Assembly: GCF_000613905.1 (NCBI RefSeq)
Contig: NZ_BAJW01000011.1
Span: forward strand, 1-64,000
Reading direction: 5' to 3'
Origin: Acetobacter persici JCM 25330
GTDB lineage: Bacteria; Pseudomonadota; Alphaproteobacteria; Acetobacterales; Acetobacteraceae
DNA: 64,000 bases
The translations under genes and the position numbers were made by a program. Shown here piece by piece: positions 8,141 through 26,686 of this stretch. The number at the start of each line of letters is the position of its first letter. The stretch's first letter is position 1. The notes beneath the pieces were generated by a model. That model was given only the letters and a program-made list of their open reading frames with translations. It was not told the origin of the DNA and ran no database searches.

Positions 8141-9775
8141 TCATAGTCTCTGTCTCAAATAGAGTGTCGGATACCTTACAGCTTCCACTGTTTGCCAGAG
8201 GTTTTCGATAGTAATACCTGAGAGATAGGTTGTAGCCCCCTGGCTCTTATGACTGGCCTCATGACCCAACAGGGCATCCATCCAGAGCTCTCTGAGGTCT
8301 CCGGTCTGATTGCGCAGGCGTGTGGATACTGTGTGCCGAAAGCTATGGAAGGTGATGGCGGCAGGAAGGCCAATCGTTGTTTTGAACTTCGAGAAATTCC
8401 GGCCAAAGTCTGTGCCACGCGGGCCGGTTTTGGGTGTCTTTAGTTCCGAAAACAGGAATTTCTCGCCGTCTTTCTTAAAATTCAGAATACCCCATTCCAG
8501 CAAAGCACTATGGATCGGCACATTACGGGTGCCTGCTTCTGTTTTCGGTGTCCATTTATCTTCCGGGTGAGGGCGGATAAGGAAACAGGGAATACCATCA
8601 ACCTCCTGAATGTCTTCATTCCGCAGGTTACAGATTTCTCCCAACCTCATACCGCTATAAGCGGCGACAAGTGTGATACCTGCGAAGGTAGCCTGTGAGA
8701 TGGTGCTGCACGTCCATGGTGAAGAGGACAGCAGAGCCAGTTCATCGTCTGTCCATGCCCTACGTGGGTTCCTCTTGGTCAGGTCAAAGTCCCAGTTGCT
8801 CCACGGGTTCTTTTCCGCAATTTCGCGACGGATAAGCTGGTTCCACAAGGCCGAAAGACGCATGAAGTGATTCTTCATGCTCTTGCCGCTTAAGGTCGGC
8901 AGGTCAAACTCCTGCGCCCGCTCGACCTCAGCGTTTAAATCCATGTCCTGCTTGCTCTTGGCGTAGGAAGAGGGGAGAGAGAAAAGCAGGTCTCGAAATT
9001 CCCCGGCAATCCGACCAGTAATCTCCTGAACGGGTTTATCGCCAAAAGCCTGAACAAAGAGTGCTACCGTGCGGGCGGTTTCTTTTTTGGTAGCGTCACT
9101 CTTCTGGGTGTCTGCCAGCAAAGCTGTCTGAAGGGCTTCTGTCAGGCGTGGGGAGGACGTGATGGCTGATGGAGCCGGAGACAGTGTGGGAGAGGAGGTC
9201 AACTGGTGGGAGGGAGGCACTGCACCGGGAGCCTGAGAAAGGGCTGGGCCTGTCTGAAACAGTTTGACCAGTGTGTCATGCAACCGTTCGATTTCTTCGG
9301 TCTTGCTGGCAAGACTGGCTTTGTCCTGCATTTTGCCGGTGATCATGTCCTGACGCAGCGTGATGATATGCTGATTCAGCCGTTCCAAAGCGTCTGTGGA
9401 GTAAGTCAGAAAGGCTCTGGTTTTGAGCAGGTCTTCATAACGGGTCATGCTGGCTGTGTAGCGCTCGACCTTGAGCTGTTCTGCTGCATTTCGTTCGGTA
9501 GTCTCGATAACCTCTTCTTGTCTTTTGATGATGTCTTCATACAGCGCCAGAAGGTCGTCCTTGGTGATGGGTTTGTTCTGGGCAGGGTCAGTCATGGTGC
9601 GGGCGGTCCTGAAAAGCGCGCTGGTCCGGGCATGGAGAGCCATGGCCGAGAGGCGGGCTTCTGATTTGTTCCCTGTTTTGAGGGAAATCCAGAATTCAGT
9701 TTTGCCGAAGAGGGGGCGCAAGGCAACGGGGACGACGCGACGGAAATGGTAGTGGGTGCCTACGAGAGCCAGCAT
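8141..9775 (-). CDS. tyrosine integrase (element A)
   Basis: A site-specific tyrosine recombinase of about 540 residues. The N-terminus (HYHFRRVVPVALRPLF) is the short DUF6538-like segment found in phage-type integrases; a long helical middle and a core-binding domain follow. The catalytic domain shows the first Arg in YSGMRLGEIC, the HxxR box in FHSFRHTVSTRLR, GHEASHKS, and the nucleophile Tyr in TTYLSG. The start at 9775 (MLALVGTHYHF) is chosen by alignment with the two other integrases of the window; an in-frame ATG at 9829 is possible. It lies 98 bases left of an att-like core. It is one of three related enzymes in tandem, the likely cause of element stacking here. Confidence 0.88.
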   Translation of the reverse strand: MLALVGTHYHFRRVVPVALRPLFGKTEFWISLKTGNKSEARLSAMALHARTSALFRTARTMTDPAQNKPITKDDLLALYEDIIKRQEEVIETTERNAAEQLKVERYTASMTRYEDLLKTRAFLTYSTDALERLNQHIITLRQDMITGKMQDKASLASKTEEIERLHDTLVKLFQTGPALSQAPGAVPPSHQLTSSPTLSPAPSAITSSPRLTEALQTALLADTQKSDATKKETARTVALFVQAFGDKPVQEITGRIAGEFRDLLFSLPSSYAKSKQDMDLNAEVERAQEFDLPTLSGKSMKNHFMRLSALWNQLIRREIAEKNPWSNWDFDLTKRNPRRAWTDDELALLSSSPWTCSTISQATFAGITLVAAYSGMRLGEICNLRNEDIQEVDGIPCFLIRPHPEDKWTPKTEAGTRNVPIHSALLEWGILNFKKDGEKFLFSELKTPKTGPRGTDFGRNFSKFKTTIGLPAAITFHSFRHTVSTRLRNQTGDLRELWMDALLGHEASHKSQGATTYLSGITIENLWQTVEAVRYPTLYLRQRL

Positions 9776-9872
9776 TGAGAACTTCTCCAGTTTGGAGAAG
9801 GACTGTGGAGAAGCGGGTTTACACTTCACCTCTTTTGGGTTTTTCCAACAAAATCAATACCTTAAGGTATGA

Positions 9873-9889
9873 GAACTGTGGGACTCGAA
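9873..9889. repeat. att-like core, copy 1
   Basis: GAACTGTGGGACTCGAA differs by one base from the cores at 22415 and 26448. It resembles a decayed tRNA T-arm and acceptor end read on the minus strand. It is the probable boundary between element A on the left and the A+T-rich element B on the right. Confidence 0.6.
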
Positions 9890-9959
9890 TACACAGTGAG
9901 TCCCGATTTTTCGCATAACATACTGATTCATATAGACATTTTGAAGCGTCTTTCGTTCT

Positions 9960-9981
9960 CACTGTAGAAAATCGCTGTAGG
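9960..9981. repeat. arm-type repeats at the left end of element B
   Basis: CACTGTAGA (9960-9968) and CGCTGTAGG (9973-9981) lie about 70 bases inside the element from att core 1. The same CACTGTAGA occurs twice near the other end (22326, 22339 region). Repeats at both ends are typical of integrase arm-binding sites. Confidence 0.5.
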
Positions 9982-9985
9982 ATTT

Positions 9986-10597
9986 TCAAGTGCCCTGAGG
10001 GAGGGCAGGAACAAGGCCCAACATTGGATTTTCTTTTACAAAGGTTTCAATATGGGCTGAAAGAGCTGTGTCATTTACGGCATCTTGGAAAATGGCGTCT
10101 AACGCAGTCTGCATGTCATCAAGCATAGTACTATAATCAAGCAGGCAAGCTTCTATGGGTTGGCCATTAGGCTTCCAAGTCATCATTTGCAAATGATTTC
10201 CTTTGTGGGTTAATAATAATGACCATTCGCGCCAGTGTTTTTTATAATTTTTCCTTTCTTTGTAGGTTCTGTCAGGAACTAAGCTTAAGGAATGAATTAA
10301 TCCACATCGCATAACCATGTATATCTGCTCTGGAACGTCTTTTATATTGTTATGTGTCTTATATGAAGGTATTCTATATTGCGGAAGTCTATCATCAAAT
10401 AATTTTGATATTTTATGAAGTGTAGATGATACTTTATGTGTGCAATTAAGTTTTGCTACTATTTCCACTAAACAACCCATTAAAACAAAATCCCATATGC
10501 TACCATTGAGCCTATCTACCTCTGACTTGATGCTTTGTGCGGTTCTTAGCTCTTGAATTCTATCGTTGATCCAAGTTTGATAGGATAATAGAGTCAT
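9986..10597 (-). CDS. unknown protein with an Rx4H (HEPN-like) motif
   Basis: A 203-residue protein that I do not recognise as a family. It is mostly helical in composition, without signal peptide or membrane segments. A segment reads MVMRCGLIHSLSL: Arg, four residues, His is the spacing of the HEPN ribonuclease motif (Rx4-6H), and the surrounding RCGLIH pattern is seen in some HEPN-like proteins. This is suggestive only. It is the first gene inside the left boundary of element B, a common place for cargo such as defence genes. It reads toward the att site, and no partner toxin or antitoxin gene is adjacent. Confidence 0.55.
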   Translation of the reverse strand: MTLLSYQTWINDRIQELRTAQSIKSEVDRLNGSIWDFVLMGCLVEIVAKLNCTHKVSSTLHKISKLFDDRLPQYRIPSYKTHNNIKDVPEQIYMVMRCGLIHSLSLVPDRTYKERKNYKKHWREWSLLLTHKGNHLQMMTWKPNGQPIEACLLDYSTMLDDMQTALDAIFQDAVNDTALSAHIETFVKENPMLGLVPALPQGT

Positions 10598-10711
10598 ATT
10601 AATTAATCCTTTTCTTTAAAAACATGATACATGCTGGTGTGTTGTTTATATATATTCGTGGAGAACTTAATCATCAAAATCTGGAATTATAATAAGCTCA
10701 CCTAACGCATC

Positions 10712-11614
10712 TCATTTCCCTTCCTTTATATTTTTGTTATTCACATAATTTAGATACCACCTATGAAATTCTTTCAGATCGTCCTTGGTTAGTTTTGTAG
10801 AATTCGAGGGAATAACAGAGACCAGCTTATTAATTTCGTGAATATCATTAATGCTCTTGTTTCTAAGATACTGCCTTACTCTGAGAGCATAATCAGTCTG
10901 ATTTTTTGGACGAATGATAGAGATTTTTATTTTAATGCTTTCTATCGTCTCCCAAAATTTCATAGCTCTTCTTTTAAAATCTTGGGACGCATTAGCATTT
11001 TGAATAAAATACATATCGAAAGTTGATAATAGGATTAACCCTGCATCATCATCTGTGAATTCTGTGGGTTTAGGTTCTGATTTATCCACTTTGACATCAT
11101 TAATATCCGATAGAACTTTAATCGCTGATATCATCTCATCAGAGTAGCTATCAAAACTGTGGTTCACTTTGTCTGAAACTACCTTTTCAATAGTCGGTTC
11201 TGACTTTTCGTTAATAACAATTTCATCAGACCGCACTATATTTATATTGTTTTTGTTATTAACAATATTCTGAAGTTCCTTATATCTAGCTTTGAGGTCT
11301 TCATCGTTCAGATTGAATGCCAGAGCGACAGATTCTTCATGAAGTAGAGAAGATTGCTCATTATTTGTTTTCAGCATTTCAAGATTATGCTCTTTGAACA
11401 ATCTCTCTTTTTCGTAATTCATAATATATTCTCTCATATTCTTTAAACGAGTATGAGCAGATTTTTCAGATTGTGTCATACCGTCAGTATTGTGAAACTG
11501 TTTGAGTAATTCTGATTGCTTGTTTCTTTTTTCATCAATTTCAGGTTCCATATCTCTATATTTTTTATATAAATCGACATAAGCATCTTCATGAAAATAT
11601 TCAAAATCATCCAT
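10712..11614 (-). CDS. unknown coiled-coil protein of element B
   Basis: A 300-residue, highly charged (Lys/Glu/Asp-rich) protein with no family I recognise. The first 100 residues look like a coiled coil (many heptad-spaced Leu with Glu/Lys). A middle linker rich in Ser/Asp/Glu follows, then a helical C-terminus. No signal peptide or membrane segment. Base composition is strongly A+T-rich like the rest of the element. Three copies of the dispersed GTKAWTMAC motif lie within the gene (10736, 11210, 11255), encoding V-N-N or V-I-N. It may be a structural or DNA-associated element protein. Confidence 0.6.
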   Translation of the reverse strand: MDDFEYFHEDAYVDLYKKYRDMEPEIDEKRNKQSELLKQFHNTDGMTQSEKSAHTRLKNMREYIMNYEKERLFKEHNLEMLKTNNEQSSLLHEESVALAFNLNDEDLKARYKELQNIVNNKNNINIVRSDEIVINEKSEPTIEKVVSDKVNHSFDSYSDEMISAIKVLSDINDVKVDKSEPKPTEFTDDDAGLILLSTFDMYFIQNANASQDFKRRAMKFWETIESIKIKISIIRPKNQTDYALRVRQYLRNKSINDIHEINKLVSVIPSNSTKLTKDDLKEFHRWYLNYVNNKNIKEGK

Positions 11615-11741
11615 GAATTTTATTCGTTCAAGATAGTTCTTTAATGGTCTATTTCTAAAAAACTCAATATCACAATAATTCTTTATAATATCTGTTATGT
11701 GATAAGACCTATGAATAGGTGAAGCTCGTCCCTCTTTGACA

Positions 11742-12101
11742 TCAATAAATTTTTTTTCTATCTATTTCATAACAATTTTTTGCGATTTCATCTTGAACTT
11801 TTGAGTGAAAATCTTTTCTAAGTTCTTCTGGAATATGTTTTTTTAAAAATTCACGATAATCGAACCCACTATAGTCTCCTGGAAAATAGTTGTTTCTCCG
11901 AGAATAGACTGGACCATGTTTTTCATATGATACAAAGCCAGCTAACTGAATAAATCCGTCAAAGACGCTATTCAGAAGCTGTTGTCTCCGTTTTTGGCGC
12001 TCAAGATTAGACATGGCTTTCCCATGCTTTGTTGGTCTCCCACGTTTTTTGGGTTCAGAGACTACAGGAGCAGAGGCATCATGATTATCGGTATCAGACA
12101 T
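11742..12101 (-). CDS. small basic protein with an AT-hook-like motif
   Basis: A 119-residue protein. Near the N-terminus it reads KKRGRPTKHGKAM, where RGRP is the core of an AT-hook, a minor-groove DNA-binding motif. A basic helical stretch (LERQKRRQQLLNSVF) follows. The rest is not recognised. In an A+T-rich mobile element such a protein could be an accessory replication, relaxosome or nucleoid factor; this is inference. A copy of the dispersed motif (GTTAATAAC, 12118) lies 17 bases upstream of its start codon, a position where an operator could act. Confidence 0.6.
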   Translation of the reverse strand: MSDTDNHDASAPVVSEPKKRGRPTKHGKAMSNLERQKRRQQLLNSVFDGFIQLAGFVSYEKHGPVYSRRNNYFPGDYSGFDYREFLKKHIPEELRKDFHSKVQDEIAKNCYEIDRKKIY

Positions 12102-12153
12102 AAAAAAATCCCATTTCGTTAATAACGATAATAGGATTCATTGTATGTAAACA

Positions 12154-12200
12154 CAAGCCTAAAGGCTTGCCCTCTGGGCCAGCAAGAGCTTGCTCTTGCT
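12154..12200. repeat. three tandem G+C-rich hairpins
   Basis: Three short perfect stems follow one another: CAAGCC/GGCTTG (12154-12169), GCCC/GGGC (12169-12179) and AGCAAGAGC/GCTCTTGCT (12181-12200). They form a G+C island in an A+T-rich element, between the exonuclease gene and the AT-hook gene. They may be a transcription terminator, or part of a replication origin, since the element encodes a HUH initiator. Confidence 0.5.
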
Positions 12201-12213
12201 CATATGATCGCAT

Positions 12214-12738
12214 CTAATCAAACACGTATGAGATACGCTTATCGTCTCTTAACTTATTGATAAGCTTAGATATTACTAAGCAATCATTGGTGGAAGAGTA
12301 TCTTTTTCCTTCCCATTCTATTCCATAATTATAAGCTACTGCATCCATCCTGGGCCAGCATCTCTCAGGAGGAGAAACGATACTTCTTACATCAACAAGA
12401 CGCTTCCTGATGAGCTTGATGGTTTCAAAATCAGCATTCATCGAATGAGCTGTTTTTATTAATTTGTTAATAACAAAATCTTCTGACCAGCAATAAATTT
12501 TATCAGCATCTCGAACAATTGGTTCTATTTTTTGAAGAACATCAATAATGCTCGGTTCATTTTTTAGCATATTATCTGTAATGCCATTTAAACGAGTAGC
12601 CATCGCTGACATACTAACTGTCGGCTTAATGCGTGAATAGAATAATATATTCCCATCCAGGTCAGATATTGCTAATTCAACAATTTCATCTTTTCTATCA
12701 ATACCTGTTGTTTCTACATCTAAAATAATACCTTTCAT
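12214..12738 (-). CDS. DnaQ-like 3'-5' exonuclease (DEDD superfamily)
   Basis: A 174-residue exonuclease-fold protein. The Exo I motif LDVETTGID provides the first Asp/Glu pair, with a hallmark NGIT segment following. In the C-terminal region SSTNDCLVISKL occupies the Exo III position and keeps the Asp, but the usual His is not obvious. DnaQ-family enzymes remove 3' nucleotides from DNA or RNA; with weakened Exo III the activity is uncertain. It is a single domain without polymerase parts. It lies between the serine recombinase and the AT-hook gene on the same strand and may form an operon with them. It could serve element replication or repair. Confidence 0.7.
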   Translation of the reverse strand: MKGIILDVETTGIDRKDEIVELAISDLDGNILFYSRIKPTVSMSAMATRLNGITDNMLKNEPSIIDVLQKIEPIVRDADKIYCWSEDFVINKLIKTAHSMNADFETIKLIRKRLVDVRSIVSPPERCWPRMDAVAYNYGIEWEGKRYSSTNDCLVISKLINKLRDDKRISYVFD

Positions 12739-12844
12739 ATAATTATCTCCATTTATCTGAGATAATTATATCATACATATTGTTATATATACTTAACTGG
12801 TATTTTTCTATATTTATTCAATGATTATGTGATTCACGAATTAA

Positions 12845-13510
12845 TTAAGACAATAGCAAATTCCGCACTACATTCGGATGCCAAGTTTCTTTTTTATGAT
12901 AAGTTTTAATTCCTAATTCAGCAAGTTGACTGCAAATTTTTCTGTAAGATAATCCAGCATCTCTCAAATCTCTGATTACTGGAATGACACGATTTCTATA
13001 AGCGATCTCTTTTTCTCGACGTGCAAGCGTAGCTTTCTCGATATCATGCGGGTTGAAGCGGTGGCTTTTCTTACGCCATCCTCCCAATTTTTTGCCTCCT
13101 GCTTTCAGGACGGCTAACCCTTCTTTAGTTCGTTTACTAATCATTTCACGCTCTTGCTGAGCCAAGAGAGCCATTATCCCAACGGTCATGACGTTTGCAT
13201 CAGGCATATCGCATGCAGTGAATGGAACATCTCCTCTTTGAAGCTGTAGGAGAAACACCGCATCACGGCTTAGACGATCCAATTTTGCGATTAATAATGT
13301 AGCTCCATACAATCTGCATTGTTCCATCGCTTGCTGTAGCATTGGCCTGTCATTTTTCTTCCCTGATTCAACCTCTCGAAATTCTTTCAACAAGATACCA
13401 TTTTTGTGATTAACATAATTGATGACGGTATCTTTTTGTGCTTGCAGTCCGAGTCCAGATTCCTTCTGCTTCTTTGTAGAAACTCTATAATAACTAATAA
13501 ATCTATTCAT
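12845..13510 (-). CDS. serine recombinase (resolvase family)
   Basis: A small serine recombinase of about 220 residues. It starts NRFISYYRVSTKKQ, where the Ser of YRVST is the expected nucleophile. The conserved IAKLDRLSRDA and EREMISKRTKEGL follow, with the E helix and a C-terminal helix-turn-helix region (SYRKICSQLAELG). I choose the ATG at 13510 over TTG 13525 because GAGGGAG precedes it at the right distance. Such enzymes resolve multimers or cointegrates. In this element it may resolve replication or transfer intermediates, complementing the tyrosine integrase that does the integration. Confidence 0.85.
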   Translation of the reverse strand: MNRFISYYRVSTKKQKESGLGLQAQKDTVINYVNHKNGILLKEFREVESGKKNDRPMLQQAMEQCRLYGATLLIAKLDRLSRDAVFLLQLQRGDVPFTACDMPDANVMTVGIMALLAQQEREMISKRTKEGLAVLKAGGKKLGGWRKKSHRFNPHDIEKATLARREKEIAYRNRVIPVIRDLRDAGLSYRKICSQLAELGIKTYHKKETWHPNVVRNLLLS

Positions 13511-13531
13511 ATAATACTCCCTCAACGCCCG

Positions 13532-13564
13532 TTGACAGTATTATACACAATTATATGCTATAAT
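13532..13564 (+). promoter_or_regulatory. candidate promoter with extended -10
   Basis: A perfect TTGACA (13532-13537) and the extended -10 TGCTATAAT (13556-13564) lie upstream of the small gene at 13604. The spacing between the two (21 bases) is too long, so the extended -10 alone, or TTGACA with an alternative -10 at about 13554, is more likely. Confidence 0.45.
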
Positions 13565-13603
13565 ATTTATTGAGTCTTAAAGACCGTAAAAATGGAGATT
13601 ATT

Positions 13604-13873
13604 ATGATAGATATTGAAGATAAAAAATATAGCGTAAAAACCATGTCTGATTATTTAGGCGGATACGGCTGGTGGCGTGCTGGCAATAATGTAGGTGATG
13701 AAAGTAGACTGTGTGAGCTTGTCCGATTTGACGATGATGGAGGATATGCTCCGGCTTTTTCTGTAGTACTTCCTAAAAATGAAGGTCAGACGTTCAAGAA
13801 GTTTGGGATGAACTGGAGCAGAATTATCAGGGAGAGTTTTCTGACATCCGAGCAAATTTTTCTAATTTCATGA
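13604..13873 (+). CDS. small hypothetical protein
   Basis: An 89-residue soluble protein that I do not recognise. It begins MIDIEDKKYSVKTM and contains GGYGWWRAGNN, a glycine/tryptophan-rich turn, then ends with hydrophobic residues. The ATG at 13604 has GGAG seven bases upstream and is preferred over 13592. It is divergent from the serine recombinase and followed at 53 bases by another unknown gene on the same strand. Its reading frame, ribosome site and the promoter in front support it as a real gene; the function is unknown. Confidence 0.5.
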   Translation: MIDIEDKKYSVKTMSDYLGGYGWWRAGNNVGDESRLCELVRFDDDGGYAPAFSVVLPKNEGQTFKKFGMNWSRIIRESFLTSEQIFLIS

Positions 13874-13926
13874 AAAAATATGAAAGCAACAACTCTATAG
13901 AAATAAAAAGATAAAGGAATCCTATT

Positions 13927-14739
13927 ATGAGTGAATATAAAAACCCATACAATTTTTTAAAAAGTATTAAAGAAACAGAACAAACTGAAGAGCAGAAAAT
14001 TGAGGCAAAATTTAAGATAATAAGTTCTAGTTTTTTGCTCTCTGTTAATAACGAAATTAACAAACCTCATCCAACTCTGAAGCCGGATGATTTAAACATG
14101 GAAAAAATTAGACACGATATCTTCAACTCTACGAATGAAGTTACTGAGCAATTAAAGTTGTTCAAGGGTCAGAAAAAGCAACTTGAAGAATCTATTCAGA
14201 AACAGCAAGCAGAACGCCAAAGAGCCTTCATGCAAAAAGGTATAAGAGGAAAGGATTTTGAGATTCCTCCCGAGACTGTAGAACAATTAGAAATGCTTTC
14301 AGCACACATTGCTGAATGTGCGAGATTTATAGCTGGAACAATTTTGCATAAGTTTGGTCTTGGTCCTCATCCTGGTCCATATCGTCCTTCATTGACACAA
14401 GACCAGATGAAAGAGTTGGAGATACAGCAATCTCAAAACCATCTTATGCAGATAATATCTGCTGATGGTTCAGTTCGAGATAACGTTGAGCGAGCTATTG
14501 TTGAATGTCATGAGTCTAAAAAAAAGCGTTTGAACGAATGGGAAAATCGGCCCGAAGCTAAAGAAGCCCAAGAAAGGCTTAATAAGTTCAGCGTAATCAT
14601 GTCAGGAAATATGGCTGACTCATTCAAGAAGAAAATATGTGGAATGAATTGTGATGAGGTTTTTGAGTTGCTTGATAAAATTGATATGCAAGATGGTAAA
14701 ATTTTAGCAAAATCAAAATCTCCATCCATAAATATGTGA
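13927..14739 (+). CDS. unknown helical protein of element B
   Basis: A 270-residue protein that I do not recognise. It is charged and largely helical, with a coiled-coil-like middle (LKLFKGQKKQLEESIQKQQ) and a short Pro-rich segment (GLGPHPGPYRPSL) after a helix with AHIAECARFIAG. No membrane segments. AAAGGAATCC precedes the ATG as a ribosome site. The gene is followed by a clear rho-independent terminator. A copy of the dispersed 9-mer lies near its start (14044) and another overlaps its TGA stop codon (14736-14744). Its location next to the mobilisation genes makes a structural or transfer-related function possible. Confidence 0.55.
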   Translation: MSEYKNPYNFLKSIKETEQTEEQKIEAKFKIISSSFLLSVNNEINKPHPTLKPDDLNMEKIRHDIFNSTNEVTEQLKLFKGQKKQLEESIQKQQAERQRAFMQKGIRGKDFEIPPETVEQLEMLSAHIAECARFIAGTILHKFGLGPHPGPYRPSLTQDQMKELEIQQSQNHLMQIISADGSVRDNVERAIVECHESKKKRLNEWENRPEAKEAQERLNKFSVIMSGNMADSFKKKICGMNCDEVFELLDKIDMQDGKILAKSKSPSINM

Positions 14740-14758
14740 ATCACATAATATTATAATA

Positions 14759-14783
14759 GGGAGCTTCAATAGCTTCCTTTTCT
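14759..14783 (+). terminator. rho-independent terminator
   Basis: A seven-base stem GGGAGCT / AGCTTCC (one G-T pair) with a TCAAT loop, followed by TTTTCTT. It ends the 13604-14739 transcript. Confidence 0.7.
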
Positions 14784-14834
14784 TATTATATTATTGGTTA
14801 AAGGAGTAGTCTCAGAACCCACTACATAATGGGA

Positions 14835-15092
14835 TTATAGAGCATCCCAAAATGCTTTATTCGCTTTATCTCTTGCATCAGCTTCGGCCAGCCTGGAAGC
14901 TTTTTCAGCTTCATATGAAGCACGATATTCTCCTTCAAGTCCCTGAGCTTTGATATCAATATCTTTGTTAAGAGTATTAAAAAGCTGTCTATGAGATGTT
15001 GATAACGATGCTTCTCTATAGGAATTTATGCGAGCTTTTTTTTCGTTGTTAATTTTCTGAATCTCTTGAAGAACTTCTTGAATGGCGTCCAT
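14835..15092 (-). CDS. small helical protein, unknown
   Basis: An 85-residue, Ala/Glu/Lys-rich protein, predicted to be almost entirely helical and probably a coiled coil (ASYEAEKASRLAEADARDKANKAF at the end). AAAGGAG stands eight bases before the ATG, a strong ribosome site. It is transcribed away from the mobC-relaxase pair. I do not recognise a family; small helical proteins next to mobC genes are sometimes relaxosome accessories, but nothing in the sequence proves that. Confidence 0.5.
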   Translation of the reverse strand: MDAIQEVLQEIQKINNEKKARINSYREASLSTSHRQLFNTLNKDIDIKAQGLEGEYRASYEAEKASRLAEADARDKANKAFWDAL

Positions 15093-15224
15093 AAGTGTAA
15101 TCTCCTTTATTATTGATATATTACCATAAATATTTATCTAAGTCAATATTTATCAATGTAATACATATATTATATGATAATTTTCATCATATTCAATAAT
15201 ATTCATCAACATATACTATAATTA

Positions 15225-15300
15225 GATGCCAGGCGTGGATTACGTTTATCCGTTTCACGGAACACTACATCCAGACTGGCAAGGGGCTTTGCCCCGTTGA
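15225..15300. other. candidate origin of transfer (oriT)
   Basis: A G+C-rich patch in A+T-rich surroundings directly upstream of mobC. It has nested inverted repeats: GGAT/ATCC, CCGT-TTC-ACGG and GGGGC-TTT-GCCCC. An oriT beside mobC, with hairpins next to a nick site, is the usual arrangement of mobilisable elements. The nick position cannot be read from sequence alone. Confidence 0.4.
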
Positions 15301-15328
15301 CCCCATTTGAACCCATAGGATTAAGGAA

Positions 15329-15708
15329 ATGAATACTAATGTGAATAACAAAAAACCCGGAAGACCCAATATGAACAGGATGGAATCCAGATTGTCCATT
15401 CGTGCAAGTCGCACTGAATTGGATGCCTGGAAGGCTACAGGAAAAGCAGAGGGCTTTGATAATTTAGCAAGCTATTTTCGTTCTCTCATGAATTCGCGCC
15501 AATATGTGAATAACGAAAAAACCATTTTGTTGATGAACTAAAAGAAGCAGTTAATCAGGTGGCTAGGTGTGGCAATAATCTGAATCAGATTGCTCATCAT
15601 TTGAATGCAAATAATGCCATTCAATCTGAGCAGACTTTTGATGCTGTTGCAGAATGCAGAGACCTTATCAGAACTGCAAAACGTATCATTCGAGATATTA
15701 AAAAATGA
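15329..15708 (+). pseudogene. mobC: MobC-type relaxosome protein, one frame break
   Basis: The first frame gives a ribbon-helix-helix-like start (GRPNMNRMESRLSIRASRTELDAWK) and stops at 15541. The continuation in the next frame reads DELKEAVNQVARCGNNLNQIAHHLN and ends RDIKK, the hallmark MobC C-terminus (ARxGNNLNQIA). The frames join in a six-A run (15516-15521), where one missing A explains everything. With that base restored the protein has about 126 residues. MobC binds oriT and helps the relaxase open the DNA. The stop overlaps the relaxase start (ATGA), as in working mob operons, so the break may be a sequencing error. Confidence 0.75.
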
Positions 15709-17423
15709 TACTTGGCTCTGAACCTAAACCTACAAGCCAGGGACCATCTGAAACCTGCGACCATGTGTTTCGTGGTGAAGCAAATGAAGAGATACAGGTT
15801 CTTCAAGGTTCAGAATTCGATGTGATGGGCATGTATGATAATGCATTGGCTCATGGTGATAAGTATGCGACTTGTCATTTTAAAATTAATCCGAAGAAAA
15901 ATATTTCCTATGATGAAATGATGCAGACCGTTTCCATGATGGCTATGGAATTCGGTTTCTCAGTTGATGAATGCACTATTGTTAAACACAAAAAACCAAA
16001 GGCTGGTGAACCAGATGCTAATGAGCATTATCATGTTTATGCACCATGGCGAACTGAAAATGGGAAATGTATCAATAGTAGTTTTTCTAGAGTGAAGCAG
16101 GAAAAGATATCAAGAGTATCAGAATACTTATTTGGACATGATATCGTAAAAGGAAAACATCAAGTCGCAGTTATAAAACAATTAAGAGATGAAGGAAAAA
16201 CTGATATTGCGGATTATATAGAAGAGCATACTCCTAATTTATATGAAGCTGTTCAATCAGCTTTTACATCTACTCAACATCAGATGGCTCAACGTCAGGG
16301 AATTAACCTTGGACAGTTGAAGAATTCAATCAAGGAACTCAGGATATCATCTGAATCCTTCAAGGATATGATTGATGGATTAGATGGTCTGGGAGTTGCT
16401 ATTAAAAAGGGAGACAAGCCAGATACATACATTATTGTTAATAACGAAAACGATAAATTTTTAGGGTCTGCTAACAGATTATTTGGAATGAAAAAGGCTG
16501 ACTTCAAGCATCAGTATGAAGCTTTGCAAGCTGGCCAGGATACAAAGTTTGAGCCATTGGAAGCTATTATCGCTCCTATTGCTTCAGATGAAAAAGCACC
16601 TCTTCAGAAGCCCGTGGAAGCGCCTATCGAGCCAGACAGAGAGAATGTTCCGTCAAAGAGTGCAACAGCACCACAGCCTCAAAAATCAGGTCACTGGCTA
16701 TCTGGGATTAATCTTACATCTCCTGCATCTACAGAAGCTCATCATGCAGTGGCTACAGATGCTATGTCATATGCTGAAAAGATTGCTATCTCTGATTATA
16801 ATAAACGTGAATCACAAAATAAAAACGAACTCGATAAATATCTTTCAGACCAGAAGAAATTTGCAGAGCTTCTTATAAAGATAGAGCAAGAGTTATCCGA
16901 ATTAATGAGAAAGCGATATCAGGCATTACCAAGAGAGCCATTTGCTAATCCTGAATTGCGCGATTCACATTATATAAGTCAGTCATTGCATGACATACTG
17001 GACCCATTGAGAAGCTCTTATCTAAAGAAAAAGTCCCGTTGGTTATCATCTGCTAAGTCAGAGCTAAGAGCTTTTAATGAAAAGATGAAAGAGCTTCGAT
17101 TTAAAGAATTTACTGGATTAGATATCTACAACAATCAAAAAGATTATGATTATGTTATTAACAATATGTCCGATTTATATGTATCATCACGACAGAAACG
17201 CCATGACGAATGGTCTAATAATTTAGATGTTATAAATTATGTTAATCACAAAAATAATATTGATAATTTAATCAGCTATATCAAAGAGCATAAAGATGAG
17301 GAGATTTTGCAATTAGCAATAAAATCGCCATTACTCGCTATTGATAGAATCAAGATGAACAAAGAAGAAAATAATAAAACGAACATTTCAAATACGGCTA
17401 TCAGCAATAAATTATCTATATGA
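15705..17423 (+). CDS. relaxase / mobilisation protein (MobA-like)
   Basis: A 572-residue relaxase. The N-terminal 200 residues are the nuclease: a catalytic Tyr is expected near the start of the conserved region (MGMYDNALAHG), and NEHYHVYAPW supplies the HxH metal-binding motif. A helical region, a Pro-rich linker (near residues 300-340) and a long charged helical tail follow. It nicks oriT and pilots the strand during conjugal mobilisation; no type IV secretion genes are present, so it would depend on another element's machinery. It is translationally coupled to mobC. The gene contains four copies of the dispersed 9-mer (16437, 16807, 17154, 17241). Confidence 0.78.
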   Translation: MILGSEPKPTSQGPSETCDHVFRGEANEEIQVLQGSEFDVMGMYDNALAHGDKYATCHFKINPKKNISYDEMMQTVSMMAMEFGFSVDECTIVKHKKPKAGEPDANEHYHVYAPWRTENGKCINSSFSRVKQEKISRVSEYLFGHDIVKGKHQVAVIKQLRDEGKTDIADYIEEHTPNLYEAVQSAFTSTQHQMAQRQGINLGQLKNSIKELRISSESFKDMIDGLDGLGVAIKKGDKPDTYIIVNNENDKFLGSANRLFGMKKADFKHQYEALQAGQDTKFEPLEAIIAPIASDEKAPLQKPVEAPIEPDRENVPSKSATAPQPQKSGHWLSGINLTSPASTEAHHAVATDAMSYAEKIAISDYNKRESQNKNELDKYLSDQKKFAELLIKIEQELSELMRKRYQALPREPFANPELRDSHYISQSLHDILDPLRSSYLKKKSRWLSSAKSELRAFNEKMKELRFKEFTGLDIYNNQKDYDYVINNMSDLYVSSRQKRHDEWSNNLDVINYVNHKNNIDNLISYIKEHKDEEILQLAIKSPLLAIDRIKMNKEENNKTNISNTAISNKLSI

Positions 17424-17435
17424 ATAGATGAGGTA

Positions 17436-17783
17436 TTATCTCATATTCAATATTTTATATGATGTTAAAATATTTAATGATATCAATATAGATATAGAAA
17501 CCGGTCTTATATGGTCTAATATAAATTCTGATATATTGAACTTTTCTTTTTCCATTGATTTTTCGGAAATATATTTCATTCTCAAATATTTCTTTATATC
17601 ATCTACTTTTATTTTATCTTTATCATCACGATAAAAATAATCCTTTTCATTTTTATCTATATATTCCTTAAAAAAATTAATTACTTTTTTATCGAATACT
17701 GAAACCATGTCATCATTTTTATATGTGTCGTCTTGTTCGGTAAATGAAAAATCTGGTTCGTAAAAATCATCGTCAGTTGCCAT
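17436..17783 (-). CDS. small hypothetical protein with acidic N-terminus
   Basis: A 115-residue protein that I do not recognise. The first 30 residues are strongly acidic, the middle is Lys/Asp-rich and helical (KKVINFFKEYIDKNEKD), and the last 25 are hydrophobic (VSISILISLNILTSYKIL), possibly a tail anchor. AGGAG precedes the ATG at the right distance. It converges on the relaxase gene (12-base gap) and is divergent from the small gene at 17890, with a dispersed 9-mer copy in the shared promoter region (17832). Function unknown. Confidence 0.5.
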   Translation of the reverse strand: MATDDDFYEPDFSFTEQDDTYKNDDMVSVFDKKVINFFKEYIDKNEKDYFYRDDKDKIKVDDIKKYLRMKYISEKSMEKEKFNISEFILDHIRPVSISILISLNILTSYKILNMR

Positions 17784-17889
17784 AAATTTTCTCCTGTTAT
17801 GTTAATTATATCAGAGAAATATTCTATTTTTGTTATTCACATAAATATCAATATTTGGTATTATCACTATGAAGCGAAAGGATAATCAT

Positions 17890-18114
17890 ATGTTCAGCGT
17901 TCTTGATATGCAGACAAACGAGACTACTAGCAAGATGACTGCGGATGAAGTTGCTGATTATCTTGTCAGTAAGGGTGCATTGATTGAAAAACCAATGCAC
18001 AGCGATGGATTAGTGTTTGAAAACGCTGAGTGGCTGGATAAGTATTTAGTTAAGTGTGAAGGAAGTGAAGATATTGAAAAAGCATATGCTGAACTCAGAA
18101 CTGCATTGGAATAA
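17890..18114 (+). CDS. small hypothetical protein
   Basis: A 74-residue acidic protein, MFSVLDMQTNETTSK at the start, with a central segment TADEVADYLVSKGALIEKP that looks like a small helical DNA- or protein-binding unit. The ATG at 17890 is chosen over 17869 because AAAGGA stands eight bases upstream. A pair of hairpins follows the stop codon. No family is recognised. Its separate promoter region and terminator-like end support it as a real gene. Confidence 0.5.
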   Translation: MFSVLDMQTNETTSKMTADEVADYLVSKGALIEKPMHSDGLVFENAEWLDKYLVKCEGSEDIEKAYAELRTALE

Positions 18115-18124
18115 TGATTATCCC

Positions 18125-18159
18125 GATGGTGTTTTCAATGTACCATCAGGTGGCCTGAT
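18125..18159 (+). terminator. overlapping hairpins after the 17890 gene
   Basis: GATGGT/ACCATC (18125-18147) and ATCAGG-TGG-CCTGAT (18145-18159) share bases and could form alternative stems. No strong T-tract follows; a weak terminator or processed 3' end. Confidence 0.4.
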
Positions 18160-18284
18160 ATTCTGATTCGGTTGTGCTTTGATGTTGGTAGTTTCCTGTA
18201 TCCTTATAATAATCTGATGCAGTTCTCCCAATCCTGCACTGATATGAGTTATTATGTCTTTGCGTGAACTGGATAAGTCAATTC

Positions 18285-19706
18285 CTACCCTGCAAATGGT
18301 GGGGGTTGACCCCTCAATTGATTACATTGATAATCAAAAAATACACCTAATACATTCTTGGTATTTATATATAAATAACTTTTACCATTAACTGAATTAA
18401 CAGAATAAGTATTATATATTTTCCTATATTTCTTATATTTATATGGTATTCTTTTTGGATTGAGATATTCTCTCATTTTTGTAATAGAGATGAATCTAGA
18501 ACATGTTTCTATATAATCTATCTTATTATCGTTCTGACCTAATTTATTGATTCTATCATCTCTAAAGCCAGATATAGAAAAAAGAGTATATGCAGGTGAT
18601 ACGGTATACATATCTGTATCATGGTTAATATTTTGTCCTGTTCGGTATTTTTCTAATCCTTGTTTATTGAGGTATGTTGTTTCCTCTTTTACGGACATTA
18701 ATTGCTTTGCTATCCACATTCTCTCATCTGACAGATAAGAGAGAGATGAATCTCCATAATCATCTGTATAGAGGCTGTTCCAGACTTTTTTGATATCTTT
18801 ACGTAATCCGATGAATCCTGTTCTGACATTGGGTTCTCCATGGTCTTTAAAGAGATAACCAAGCACGCCATCGAAATATGTAATTTTCTGATTAATTGAG
18901 TAATTTTTCTCCCATCGTTCTTCTTCTTGTTGAAAATATTTGAAGAAAATTTTTGTAAGTTTATCTAAATCTTTTTTATTATCGTTATTCACGAAATATA
19001 TTATGTGGAGATGTGGGGTTTCATCTTTGTGGCCGTGAATTTTGTATATCCCTAGCCATAAGATATCAGCACGTTCAGCATCGCGTTTAATACCATTCAA
19101 TCTGCGATTAATTTCATCATTCGCTTGCTCGTAGGTCATGGAATGATATTTCCCAGGTAACGTAAGGGAAATAAAATACCCTGATTCATGTGCAGAAGGT
19201 GTTAATCCAGCTAATCGTGCAGATGCTTCCAGGCATTCAGATATAGCCCAGTCTCTGGCTTTATTGTTTTTCTTCTTTTTATCAATGGAATCCTGAACAC
19301 TAAATCCATTATATTTTATCGACTTATATCGACTAGCTTTATCAGCATCGAACTTCTGCTGAACTTCATCATCATCTTTAGAAATGCTTAGAGCTTTACG
19401 TATGTTGATACGAGCTTTATCAGCTTTGGCTGATAACTTTTGTCCTGTGATTCCGTAATGCTGTCTTAATTCTGCATATGAAAGAGATACCAATTCGAAG
19501 GTATCAACGACTGATTTTTTGAGTCGTGGAAGCATTTTAAGGACATTCAAAGCCCATTCACAAGCATCGCAATCATCTGATAAACGGCTGTTTTCTTTGA
19601 TTTTCTGATATAGCTTATAGCGATAGAAGGGGGTGAGAGCAGTAATGATATCATATGTGTTGATATCATGTTCATGGATGTGTTGCTCTAACTTTTCATA
19701 ACTCAA
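18285..19706 (-). CDS. HUH-family replication initiator (phage gpA / Rep type)
   Basis: A 473-residue protein resembling the replication gene A family of phages and plasmids. The key features are YFISLTLPGKYHSM, which matches the F-TLT-P-KYH signature of the family, and HKDETPHLHIIYFV, the HUH metal-binding motif. The segment GVLGYLFKDHG stands where the catalytic Tyr helix (Y-x-x-K) is expected. The protein would nick its origin and start rolling-circle replication of the excised element. It is one of two HUH enzymes of element B, the other being the relaxase. GGAGT stands upstream of the ATG. One dispersed 9-mer lies inside (18984). Confidence 0.78.
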   Translation of the reverse strand: MSYEKLEQHIHEHDINTYDIITALTPFYRYKLYQKIKENSRLSDDCDACEWALNVLKMLPRLKKSVVDTFELVSLSYAELRQHYGITGQKLSAKADKARINIRKALSISKDDDEVQQKFDADKASRYKSIKYNGFSVQDSIDKKKKNNKARDWAISECLEASARLAGLTPSAHESGYFISLTLPGKYHSMTYEQANDEINRRLNGIKRDAERADILWLGIYKIHGHKDETPHLHIIYFVNNDNKKDLDKLTKIFFKYFQQEEERWEKNYSINQKITYFDGVLGYLFKDHGEPNVRTGFIGLRKDIKKVWNSLYTDDYGDSSLSYLSDERMWIAKQLMSVKEETTYLNKQGLEKYRTGQNINHDTDMYTVSPAYTLFSISGFRDDRINKLGQNDNKIDYIETCSRFISITKMREYLNPKRIPYKYKKYRKIYNTYSVNSVNGKSYLYINTKNVLGVFFDYQCNQLRGQPPPFAG

Positions 19707-19818
19707 AATACTCCTTACCCAGAAACTTCTACAAAACCTCAGGAGTATGTGCTATTATAAAGAAATAGCTCTCCTGTTGTTTTGGTTTGTGGTAAAATTA
19801 TTATAGCAGAGATTGTTA

Positions 19819-19840
19819 AGGGATAGAGAAATCTATCCCT
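19819..19840. terminator. hairpin with T-tract on the plus strand
   Basis: AGGGATAGA-GAAA-TCTATCCCT followed by TTTTTT. It lies just beyond the end of the minus-strand gene 19849-20709 and probably ends that transcript or protects against read-through from the left; the T-tract is on the plus side. Confidence 0.5.
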
Positions 19841-19848
19841 TTTTTATT

Positions 19849-20709
19849 TCATATATGTTTTGATAGTTCATCTTTATGAACCAGATATCCAATTTTATTC
19901 AAATGTCCGTATAGAGAATCCATTTGGCTTTTAAGTTGTTCAGCATATTTTTTGTTGAAAAATAATTCATCAAGACGATTTCCAAATATAACAGACGTAT
20001 CTACTATATATTTTACTGCGGAATATATTTCATTTTCCTTAATTGATCTCCAAACAATACGTGAACCTGATTCTGAAATATGATTACTAAGAGAATTTTC
20101 TGAGATATGGCAGTGGGTATTGGATATGAAACGATAGTTTAAATATACCGTGTCGCTCTGCCATTCATCTTGTGTAAAATCGTAAAAAGTTCCCGCATCT
20201 GTTCTTTTTTTCGTATTTAAAGATTTTAATTGACTCTGTATTCGTGAATTAATTTCGTCTATCTTTTCTTGTACGCCTTCGTAAATATCCTTTAAGTAAG
20301 AGCTATTCTCAATGTGTTTTATCATAGAATTGCTAAATTTTACTCTATCATCATTGGAAATATTTATAAAATATTCCTCATCTTTTATTGCGCAAGCTAA
20401 TGCAAGGTAACATTCTTGCATATTCCTTATTATTGAATAAGAATCTGAATTCACGCCATAACTAATCAATATAATAGAAGATTGTAAGCTCTGACAAAAC
20501 CTAACCCCTAGTATGTTTGAAATTTTTTCTATTCTAGAATTATTTGGGTCTAAAGAACTTATTATATTTTGTAGAAGTCGGTTTGTCTTTCTAAGAATAT
20601 CAAATTCTTCATTATATATATATTTTAGATCGCTTCTATGTTCTTCTACATAATCAGAAATAAATCCTTCGGTTTCAAATGTGCTTTTATTTTCGGATGA
20701 ATGGCTCAT
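19849..20709 (-). CDS. DUF5677-like protein coupled to the integrase
   Basis: A helical protein of about 286 residues. The pattern RFCQSLQSSIILISYGVNSDSYSIIRNMQECYLAL and a later HISENSLSNH resembles the DUF5677 family, whose function is not known; I make this assignment by pattern only. The ATG at 20709 overlaps the stop codon of the integrase gene (ATGA) and AAAGGATAA precedes it, so it is translated together with the integrase. That suggests a function in excision, stability or element defence. No signal peptide or membrane segment. Confidence 0.5.
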   Translation of the reverse strand: MSHSSENKSTFETEGFISDYVEEHRSDLKYIYNEEFDILRKTNRLLQNIISSLDPNNSRIEKISNILGVRFCQSLQSSIILISYGVNSDSYSIIRNMQECYLALACAIKDEEYFINISNDDRVKFSNSMIKHIENSSYLKDIYEGVQEKIDEINSRIQSQLKSLNTKKRTDAGTFYDFTQDEWQSDTVYLNYRFISNTHCHISENSLSNHISESGSRIVWRSIKENEIYSAVKYIVDTSVIFGNRLDELFFNKKYAEQLKSQMDSLYGHLNKIGYLVHKDELSKHI

Positions 20710-22301
20710 TGTATTATCCTTTCGATATTCCAAAACACAGGATACGTGACACTATCAGCAACTTTCTTAAGATTTTCCACATCAATCTCATCGAGATAGA
20801 CAGTATTGCCGACTGATTTATTCTGACCTTCATGACCCAAGAAGTTATCAATCCAAACTTCACGCAAACCGCCATTTCCGCTGTCAGAAATGTTTCTCAG
20901 CTTTGTAGAGACGTTATGCCTAAAGCTATGAAAATCTACTCCACGAGGAATGCCATTCCTGAGCTTGAACTTTGAGAATGACTGCTGAAAACCTTGAGAG
21001 CGTTTTTTATCTTTTCCCATAAATTTTAGCTCAGAAAAAAGATAATAATTCTTTTTATTGTTATTCACGAAATCCAGAAAGCCAGCATTAATAAGAGCAT
21101 CGCCAATAGGAACAACTCTCTCGCCAGCTTCTGTCTTTGGGTTCCAGCTTTCCCAGGGTCTATTTTTTCGTGCCGTATGCTCTCTGATGAGTATGCAAGA
21201 AATGCCACGGATTTCCTTGATATCTTCAAGCCTAATCCTGCAAATCTCTTCTAACCTCATACCGCAATATGAACCCAAGCCGACTATATACGCATAGGTT
21301 TTTCGGGAGATTGTTGTACTGTTCCACAATGAATTCATCAGCGATTGAAGCTGTTCATCATTCCATCGAATTCTTTTAATTTTTGGCTTTGCATCGAACT
21401 TCCAGCCAACAAAGATATTACGGTCAACAAGTTCACGCAGGAGATAATATCTCCAGATTGCTGACAATCTTGCGAAGTGATTTTTGATAGTTTTCTCAGA
21501 GATTCTTGGAAGTTTCGCTTTTTGGCAATAAACAACAAGCTCCTGAACTGTCCTAACGTCCTTACTGCTCTTGCCATAATTCTCAGGCATTTTCTCCATC
21601 ATCTCTTTGAACTTGCCAGAATCCTCACCTGTATAATCTCTGATATCGTGGTCCCCACATACTTCTATGAATCTCTGAGCCGTATTGCGAAAACCTCTTG
21701 AGTCAGAGTCATTCATCTTTTCTGAATGAGCTTTAAGATACTCATCCACAGCTACAGAGAATATGGGAGACTTCTTCTTCTCAGGAGGCTTAACCCACCC
21801 CTGAATATCCATGAACTGCTGTTGCATCTGCTGGATAGAGTTATATGCATTAAAGTCTTTATGTTCTCTCATATATGAAAGAACAGCATCAATCTGAGGC
21901 TTTGATGCATTAATGATATCATCTACTTTTTTATATCTTTGATAGTCTTCCATGCGCTGAAGATAATGCTCAGCTTGAGCCAGCTTATATTGAGTTTTCA
22001 ATTCCTTAATGTGAGCTTCATACGTATCAATAATATCTTTGATAGTACGTTCATCGTGAGAGCCATCAGCGACATTAATCATGTCATCATAGAGATAGCT
22101 CTTACTCAATGTGTTTCTCACAATAGAAAAAAACTGACTTGTTAAGCCAAAAATTGCACATCCTCGAATTTTTGCAACTTCGACATCAGAAGTTTCAAGT
22201 GAGTGCCACATCTCATTTTTTTTGAGAATCTTACGAAGATCGAGTGGAACCCATCTCCGCAGATTATAAGTCGCTCCGATTCGCACGAGTTTCATTGGCA
22301 T
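20706..22301 (-). CDS. tyrosine integrase (element B)
   Basis: A tyrosine recombinase of about 531 residues, related in layout to the integrases at 8141 and 24979. The N-terminus (ATYNLRRWVPLDLR) is the same short DUF6538-like segment. The catalytic domain carries the Arg in YCGMRLEEIC, FHSFRHNVSTKLR, GHEGQNKS and the Tyr in TVYLDEI. AGGAAGC precedes the ATG at 22301, which I prefer over 22328. It is A+T-rich like the rest of its element, unlike the two other integrases. It lies about 110 bases from att core 2, with arm-type repeats between. It should integrate and excise element B. Confidence 0.9.
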   Translation of the reverse strand: MPMKLVRIGATYNLRRWVPLDLRKILKKNEMWHSLETSDVEVAKIRGCAIFGLTSQFFSIVRNTLSKSYLYDDMINVADGSHDERTIKDIIDTYEAHIKELKTQYKLAQAEHYLQRMEDYQRYKKVDDIINASKPQIDAVLSYMREHKDFNAYNSIQQMQQQFMDIQGWVKPPEKKKSPIFSVAVDEYLKAHSEKMNDSDSRGFRNTAQRFIEVCGDHDIRDYTGEDSGKFKEMMEKMPENYGKSSKDVRTVQELVVYCQKAKLPRISEKTIKNHFARLSAIWRYYLLRELVDRNIFVGWKFDAKPKIKRIRWNDEQLQSLMNSLWNSTTISRKTYAYIVGLGSYCGMRLEEICRIRLEDIKEIRGISCILIREHTARKNRPWESWNPKTEAGERVVPIGDALINAGFLDFVNNNKKNYYLFSELKFMGKDKKRSQGFQQSFSKFKLRNGIPRGVDFHSFRHNVSTKLRNISDSGNGGLREVWIDNFLGHEGQNKSVGNTVYLDEIDVENLKKVADSVTYPVFWNIERIIQ

Positions 22302-22324
22302 ATGAAGCTTCCTGGGAAGCTTCC

Positions 22325-22355
22325 TCACTGTAGATACCCACTGTAGAAGCTACAG
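22325..22355. repeat. arm-type repeats at the right end of element B
   Basis: Two direct copies of CACTGTAGA followed by an inverted CTACAG. The same CACTGTAGA occurs near the left end (9960). They lie between the integrase start and att core 2, where arm-binding sites of tyrosine integrases are usually found. Confidence 0.5.
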
Positions 22356-22408
22356 CGGGTGAGGTTGTGGGAACCTCAAAAAATCTAATGAAATCAGTGA
22401 GTTATAAT

Positions 22409-26352: not shown

Positions 26353-26441
26353 AAAATCTTCCCTTAGTGGGGAAGGACGATGGAGCAAAGACAGTCTTTG
26401 CCCCTCTATCAGCCGAAAAATCGTGCTATTTCAGGTGTCTG

Positions 26442-26466: not shown

Positions 26467-26686
26467 TGCATCAACCCGCAGTGACACTTTTCTAACCCCT
26501 TGAAGCAGCAAAAAGAATGCGGCGTGCTGTCTTCCGGTTAGTGTTCTGGTTCCCAGAATTGGTTAAACAATCTGGGAACACCTTGAGGAAAGTCTAACCG
26601 TATTTTGGTGATTTTGGAAAGAGGTTAATAACGGTCAATATATAAAAAATATTCAGATTATTCTGAGAAAAGATGAATTTATAAAA
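26467..26686. other. intergenic region right of att core 3
   Basis: Holds a 9-bp inverted repeat GTTCCCAGA / TCTGGGAAC (26549-26579, 13-base spacer) and the only copy of the GTKAWTMAC motif that I found outside element B (GTTAATAAC, 26624). The parB transcript from the right ends here. No gene seen. Confidence 0.4.

Follow-up and report, generated by a model that had tools for sequence, protein, structure and literature searches.

A palindrome array inside a mobile element

The DNA analysed here, hereafter the window, is a stretch of 64,000 nucleotides from Acetobacter persici JCM 25330 (assembly GCF_000613905.1, contig NZ_BAJW01000011.1, positions 1 to 64,000 of the forward strand). In this acetic acid bacterium, a mobile element of about 12 kb carries an array of 18 copies of the palindromic motif GTKAWTMAC, most of them inside its genes. 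We took the element as positions 9831-22400, an A+T-rich span of 12.6 kb with 34.9% G+C that holds an integrase, a relaxase and a broken mobC, together with a gene for a basic protein bearing an AT-hook (Table 1). The broken frames of mobC and of the AT-hook gene represent either real decay or draft errors.

An exact search located GTKAWTMAC at all 18 positions of the element given in the original prediction, and a single further copy, isolated and outside the element at 26624, brings the window to 19; in 100 dinucleotide shuffles of the 64-kb window the mean was 1.40 copies and the largest count 4. Under Markov models of order 1-4 the element should hold 0.37-0.47 copies, in agreement with an earlier hand estimate of less than one copy by chance. 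The half-sites GTKA and TMAC form 18 pairs at spacing 1 and none at spacings 0 or 2-7. Further, when 1792 degenerate half-sites were scanned motif-blind at gaps of 0-8, GTKA-N1-TMAC came out on top, with 18 occurrences against 0.45 expected. The count was not reproduced by codon-preserving shuffles, which covered 13 open reading frames (ORFs) of the element with mobC excluded: synonymous-codon shuffles gave a mean of 1.58 copies and a maximum of 6, none of 2000 reaching the 12 observed, and codon-order shuffles gave a mean of 0.26 against the same 12. Three copies (12118, 12829 and 17832) are wholly intergenic and the copy at 14736 overlaps a stop codon.

Alignment of the 18 copies with their flanks defines the unit as a 17-bp palindrome, TWWYGTKAWTMACRWWA. 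With a scoring matrix derived from these same 18 copies, all of them score at least 15.3 bits, while the next places in the element reach 14.7 (15981), 13.4 (10838) and then 7.5. The R(A/T)A flank first noticed after the motif is present, but it is not one-sided, as the flanks are symmetric (TWWY/RWWA). Among the 53 core copies of this element and two related Gluconobacter elements, the centre base is A in 28 and T in 25, each of the four half-site combinations (G/T by A/C) is represented, and information drops beyond about five bases from the core on both sides. A palindrome of this form is what a symmetric dimer would be expected to call for. DnaA boxes were also considered, as GTTATTCACA contains TTATNCACA, the DnaA-box consensus, but the symmetry of the site and the variation in both half-sites led to their rejection.

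Table 1. Genes of the element and palindrome sites, in window coordinates
Feature	Position	Strand	Remarks
AT-hook/basic protein gene, candidate binder	10712-12101	-	ORFs 11742-12101 and 10712-11614; single frame in three homologs
DnaQ-type exonuclease	12214-12738	-	PF00929
Serine recombinase	12845-13507	-	PF00239 (Pfam scan spanned 12845-13525)
ORF 13927	13927-14739	+	Coiled-coil-like match below cut-off; homologs in sister elements
mobC, 5' part	15329-15541	+	Frame broken relative to homologs
MobA/VirD2-like relaxase	15705-17423	+	PF03432, E 1.3e-4, slightly under Pfam cut-off
Rolling-circle replication initiator (Rep), phage GPA-like	18285-19706	-	PF05840, E 5e-7, slightly under cut-off; phrog_91
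DUF5677 gene	19849-20733		In L095 at 7021-7905
Tyrosine integrase of the element	20706-22328	-	
Palindrome site	10736-10744		C-terminal part of AT-hook gene
Palindrome site	11210-11218		C-terminal part of AT-hook gene
Palindrome site	11255-11263		Position matched in both Gluconobacter elements
Palindrome site	12118-12126		Intergenic, 16 bp ahead of AT-hook start codon; candidate autoregulatory operator
Palindrome site	12466-12474		Exonuclease gene; position matched in Gluconobacter Dm-62
Palindrome site	12829-12837		Intergenic, 90 bp ahead of exonuclease start
Palindrome site	13406-13414		Serine recombinase gene; position matched in Dm-62
Palindrome site	14044-14052		ORF 13927; missing from both Gluconobacter homologs
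Palindrome site	14736-14744		Overlaps stop codon of ORF 13927
Palindrome site	15341-15349		Close to start of mobC frame
Palindrome site	15506-15514		mobC; L034 has one in the equivalent mobC stretch
Palindrome site	16437-16445		Relaxase gene; position matched in L032, L033, L034, Dm-62 and G. thailandicus
Palindrome site	16807-16815		Relaxase gene, not in Val frame; position matched in Dm-62
Palindrome site	17154-17162		Relaxase gene; window only
Palindrome site	17241-17249		Relaxase gene; position matched in both Gluconobacter elements
Palindrome site	17832-17840		Intergenic; 48 and 28 bp ahead of the starts of two divergent ORFs
Palindrome site	18984-18992		Replication-initiator gene; position matched in G. 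thailandicus
Palindrome site	21060-21068		Integrase gene; position matched in both Gluconobacter elements

Among 12 window ORFs scanned with Pfam, neither a ParA/ParM-type partner nucleoside triphosphatase (NTPase) nor a methyltransferase family was found above cut-off, and Rep gave ParB-type matches only below it. Three related tyrosine integrases follow one another on the minus strand (8141-9829, 20706-22328 and 24979-26388), which could reflect a stack of several integrative elements at a shared attachment site.

Sister arrays and selection on DNA

Two patterns were counted across genomes, the 9-bp core GTKAWTMAC and a strict 15-bp pattern, with the reversed pattern as control in each case. 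The strict pattern has 20 matches in the genome of A. persici JCM 25330 (control 1), 17 of them in this element, two on contig C223, where a related element lies, and one on contig C234; the other 48 genomes of the genus have at most four each, or 48 in sum against a control of 31. The lone site on C234, at 16043, lies about 4 kb from a distant relaxase homolog (10844-12397). The 9-bp core occurs 62 times in the genome. In a strict-pattern scan of 397 genomes of the family, the largest excesses were found in this genome (G000, 20 against 1) and in Gluconobacter thailandicus NBRC 100600 (G302, 11 against 0), where all 11 matches fall on two contigs.

Arrays are present in two Gluconobacter elements. 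The two G. thailandicus contigs appear to belong to a single element; one has 10 core copies and the other 4, and between them they carry homologs of the integrase (86%), the DUF5677 protein (90%), Rep, the relaxase, mobC, ORF 13927 and the AT-hook protein. The element of Gluconobacter sp. Dm-62 has 21 core copies and 18 places of at least 15 bits. Both sisters emerged from the family-wide motif scan and the AT-hook protein; relatives of the integrase were dropped as a guide to sister arrays, having matched in 46 of 100 genomes, and 13 regions fetched around such matches (L021-L033) hold 0-4 core copies. Plasmids yielded no match to the AT-hook protein, ORF 13927 or the Dm-62 element, one partial copy of Rep in A. 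ascendens and eight relaxase records below 60% identity, and no relatives were found in the viral contigs scanned.

The 53 core copies of the three elements divide into 37 inside genes, 12 intergenic and four across gene ends. As first proposed for the window, the genic copies mostly encode V-N-N, V-I-N or V-N-H (30 of 37, in the Val frame), and the other seven lie in other frames. For conservation, every window in the same genes contributed to the expectation; gapped windows and genes without a window counterpart (mobC) were excluded. Between the window and Dm-62, seven of 11 alignable coding sites are kept where 0.89 would be expected; between the window and G. thailandicus, five of nine are kept where 0.51 would be expected. 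Orthologous copies swap GTT with GTG and AAC with CAC while the motif stays intact, and the latter swap turns Asn into His. These motif-keeping Asn/His switches and the seven out-of-frame sites indicate that the constraint is on DNA, not protein, as originally proposed; the codon shuffles and the intergenic copies agree with this. A protein-level cause in the form of V-N-N peptides was ruled out by the synonymous shuffles and the out-of-frame copies.

Conservation is accompanied by turnover. Lineage-specific sites exist, such as 14044 in the window and 4718 in Dm-62, and at eight of the nine window coding sites for which more distant homologs supplied rows, every row shown is without the motif. 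At 17241, for instance, the window encodes Tyr-Val-Asn-His and 10 of 12 distant rows (from seven elements, some rows being duplicates) have Tyr-(Leu/Ile)-Lys-Ala. The sites were therefore probably gained through amino-acid-changing substitutions, as far as these alignments indicate. An origin by small insertions was not favoured, since most sites replace aligned codons without gaps (some gaps exist, for example at Dm-62 4466).

Two further observations concern individual genes. The DUF5677 gene of the Acetobacter element and its Gluconobacter counterpart are 90% identical; neither has the motif, unlike their neighbours rep and int. The site inside mobC (15506 in the window, 8693 in L034, 9598 in L085 and 8082 in L086) is roughly palindromic in the distant elements with a different core, and its persistence in this form hints at an old internal site.

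The candidate binder and competing explanations

The AT-hook protein begins with RGRPTKHGKAMSNxERQK, and its remainder is helical in a low-confidence structure model. It was found in three of 397 family genomes (A. persici JCM 25330, A. orleanensis (G023) and G. thailandicus) and in two of 26 Gluconobacter genomes, namely G. thailandicus and G482, whose match coincides with the position of the Dm-62 locus. The two genomes with the largest motif excesses both carry the gene; the third carrier, A. orleanensis, has only two matches against none in the control. The protein and motif tallies come from two genome draws of the same size, whose listed members agree. With start codons chosen by us, a site lies 16 bp ahead of the AT-hook start in the window, 18 bp in G. 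thailandicus and 20 bp in A. orleanensis, and Dm-62 has a one-mismatch site at the equivalent place. Similarly, a second small gene (MSIFDD) is preceded by a site in two elements, at 16 and 18 bp from the start codon.

We tentatively favour, at a little short of an even chance, a dispersed operator array for an element-encoded, self-silencing regulator, with the AT-hook/basic protein as the likeliest binder. A binding site for an element-encoded protein, with this protein named, had been one of several proposals in the original prediction and fits best among them. In the proposed mechanism, the protein would bind the 17-bp palindrome as a dimer; its RGRP hook could grip the A+T-rich flanks and its basic stretch the GTKA half-sites. 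Sites just upstream of start codons would repress initiation, that of the binder's own gene included, and those within the integrase, replication initiator, relaxase, mobC, recombinase and exonuclease genes would halt or weaken transcription as it proceeds along the element. In this way the element would stay quiet, and it may distinguish related elements by site sequence. The identity of the binder, its dimeric binding and repression are what we infer from the co-occurrence of gene and array and from the form and placement of the sites.

Related elements carry variants of both partners. In L085, L086 and L088, shorter proteins with RGRP-x5-AM(S/T)N-x-ERQ are encoded downstream of clusters of TTTCGTGTNACACGAAA-type palindromes. 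In all three, these palindromes follow one another at intervals of 24-25 bp and occupy the ranges -201 to -254 and -514 to -565; their flanks resemble those of the window motif, with a different core. S-centred copies (GTKASTMAC) also occur in some relatives, four of them in L085. Besides these genes, the short protein has 24 matches in 20 further genomes of the genus; nine of them were inspected and encode longer proteins in a different context, presumably TraD-like genes beside a MobA-like gene, in line with a weak Pfam match. A second palindrome, TGTMNKACA, mostly spaced by about 21-22 bp, occurs at 14420-14973 in L088, 4063-4656 in L086 and 6815-7274 in L085. Its clusters adjoin a HicB/RHH-like gene (Pfam match below cut-off) that neighbours the short AT-hook gene; plasmid-borne relatives of this HicB/RHH-like gene occur in Gluconobacter, Komagataeibacter, Acetobacter, Novacetimonas and Roseomonas. 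A broader proposal, which we hold to be doubtful, is a self-silencing system of a new kind, in which a family of AT-hook/basic proteins, none of which matched a described domain family in these searches, would each read its own palindrome (GTKAWTMAC, GTGTNACAC). The sites would have been written into core genes by amino-acid-changing substitutions, and related elements would fall into separate specificity groups, much like phage immunity groups.

Several observations weigh against an operator array read by the AT-hook protein. The AT-hook gene of the window is split into two frames, yet 18 copies remain; given this split and the shortened mobC, either the draft sequence may contain errors or the window may encode an inactive binder. 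Three places of at least 15 bits occur in L033 and two in L034, although neither has a detectable AT-hook gene. Profile and domain searches and a search of PDB by sequence recognised no described DNA-binding domain in the protein; no ParB domain was found in it, and neither PDB by sequence nor phages gave a match. Its structure model is poor (mean pLDDT, a confidence score, of 45 from a five-row alignment). In addition, gene and array occur together mostly because a single element lineage has passed both on, and Rep, the relaxase, mobC and ORF 13927 are likewise common to the three elements with arrays. Detectable similarity between the long and the short AT-hook proteins covers only about 24 residues (58% identity, E 7e-5), and the rest of the short protein weakly resembles TraD (E 0.06, below cut-off). 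Variant palindromes occur without an AT-hook gene in L087, which includes a pair 25 bp apart, and in L092. Finally, 43 of the 62 core copies lie outside the window, a mild excess over the 14 control copies in the whole genome, and some copies elsewhere in the genome may therefore also matter.

Of the other explanations, the strongest, though improbable, is a centromere- or nucleoid-like role, in which a protein of this kind would coat or fold the element for stable inheritance or cohesion of the excised circle, with regulation secondary. The spread of copies over most of the element, 37 of 53 of them genic, would suit this role, as would the regular spacing and conserved places of the variant clusters upstream of the short AT-hook gene, which resemble those of plasmid stability loci, stb of R388 among them. 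However, the recurrent distances of 16-20 bp before start codons point to operators, and the DUF5677 gene is without a copy in both the window and G. thailandicus. The Pfam scan of the 12 window ORFs gave no ParA/ParM-type gene above cut-off, a negative that leaves single-protein partition systems unaffected. With lower probability still, another protein of the element, for example an RHH-like MobC or an unrecognised one, would bind the sites and the array would serve transfer. In its favour, each of the three array elements carries mobC, relaxase, Rep and ORF 13927, mobC or relaxase sites persist in L033 and L034 where the AT-hook gene is not detectable, and variant palindromes are present in L087 and L092 without such a gene. 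Yet L087 has only two places of at least 15 bits despite its MobC (77% to G. thailandicus), ORF 13927 (49%), Rep (54%) and relaxase (38%), and L086, with a 74% identical recombinase, has none.

It is very unlikely that a host DNA-binding protein reads the sites: the core copies outside the window exceed the control, but the strict pattern is concentrated in this element (17 of 20 matches) and stays at four or fewer matches in each of the other 48 genus genomes, with a sum of 48 against 31 for its control. Least credible of all are an uptake sequence, a methylation target or a chance product of Val-Asn-Asn coding. The last would draw on the 30 of 37 genic copies in the V-N-N, V-I-N or V-N-H frame, but synonymous shuffles that keep the peptides give 1.6 copies rather than 12, and the frame bias can be explained because the two remaining reading frames of the motif often hit stop codons, as follows from the genetic code. 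An uptake sequence, raised in the original prediction, is not borne out, as no other Acetobacter genome has a comparable excess of the strict pattern and all 11 G. thailandicus matches are confined to two contigs. The methylation target, proposed alongside it, is unlikely in view of the 12 scanned ORFs, which gave no methyltransferase family above cut-off, and of the rarity of the strict pattern elsewhere in the genome.

Known systems and significance

Cluster A mycobacteriophages such as L5 and Bxb1 carry 20-30 stoperators of one phage repressor, most of them not at promoters; an autoregulatory site has been proposed, and the consensus diverges along with the repressor (PMC6550527). The likeness lies in the repetition of a single site throughout an element (18, 21 and 14 core copies in the three elements here). 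Stoperators are, however, 13 bp long and mostly in one orientation to transcription, whereas the sites described here are symmetric 17-bp palindromes, mostly genic, on a small relaxase-bearing element in which no homolog of the phage repressor was seen.

About a dozen palindromic copies of the KorB operator (OB) are dispersed over plasmid RK2. KorB of this IncP plasmid silences replication and transfer genes from operators near or far from promoters (PMC11790492). Here, too, palindromic sites in a putative operator role are scattered over an element that carries genes for replication and transfer, but KorB belongs to the ParB family, whereas no ParB domain was found in the candidate, and the sites are mostly intragenic. 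The array thus resembles stoperators and KorB operators yet belongs to neither class, given the symmetry of its site and the searches, in which neither a ParB-type nor a phage repressor homolog turned up.

The StbA repeats of R388 are clustered at the stb operon, whereas the sites of the window are dispersed, though relatives cluster variants at the short AT-hook gene. Loss of the StbA gene affects plasmid stability and transfer (PMC3098194). A partition locus (ParABS or other) would be marked by a partner NTPase, a restriction-modification target by a methyltransferase on the element and a DNA uptake sequence by genome-wide enrichment; the 12 window ORFs scanned with Pfam yielded neither enzyme above cut-off, and the strict pattern is not enriched genome-wide in the genomes counted. 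An integrative mobilizable element would be recognised by an integrase, a relaxase and MobC, by defined att sites and by the lack of conjugation machinery; the first three are present here, mobC in broken form. H-NS- and Lsr2-type silencers read A+T-rich DNA with low specificity, and the specific 17-bp palindrome sets the array apart from xenogeneic silencers of the Sfx kind. With Sfx of R6K, a mobile element silences its own transfer genes (PMC13250579). Among the matches listed in literature searches, none was a work on this motif, these elements or the AT-hook protein; for the motif itself the listing covered 20 of 384 papers with such 9-mers, and none had a title on mobile elements of acetic acid bacteria.

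If the favoured reading is true, a small mobile element would have reshaped its own proteins to accommodate a code in its DNA, with selection at the DNA level acting through coding sequence. The stoperator idea would then reach integrative elements, and a new family of DNA-binding proteins could be named. The diverging protein-site pairs (GTKAWTMAC and GTGTNACAC) would provide natural material for studying how specificity evolves, and they may offer insight into the mutual avoidance of mobile elements in vinegar and food bacteria.

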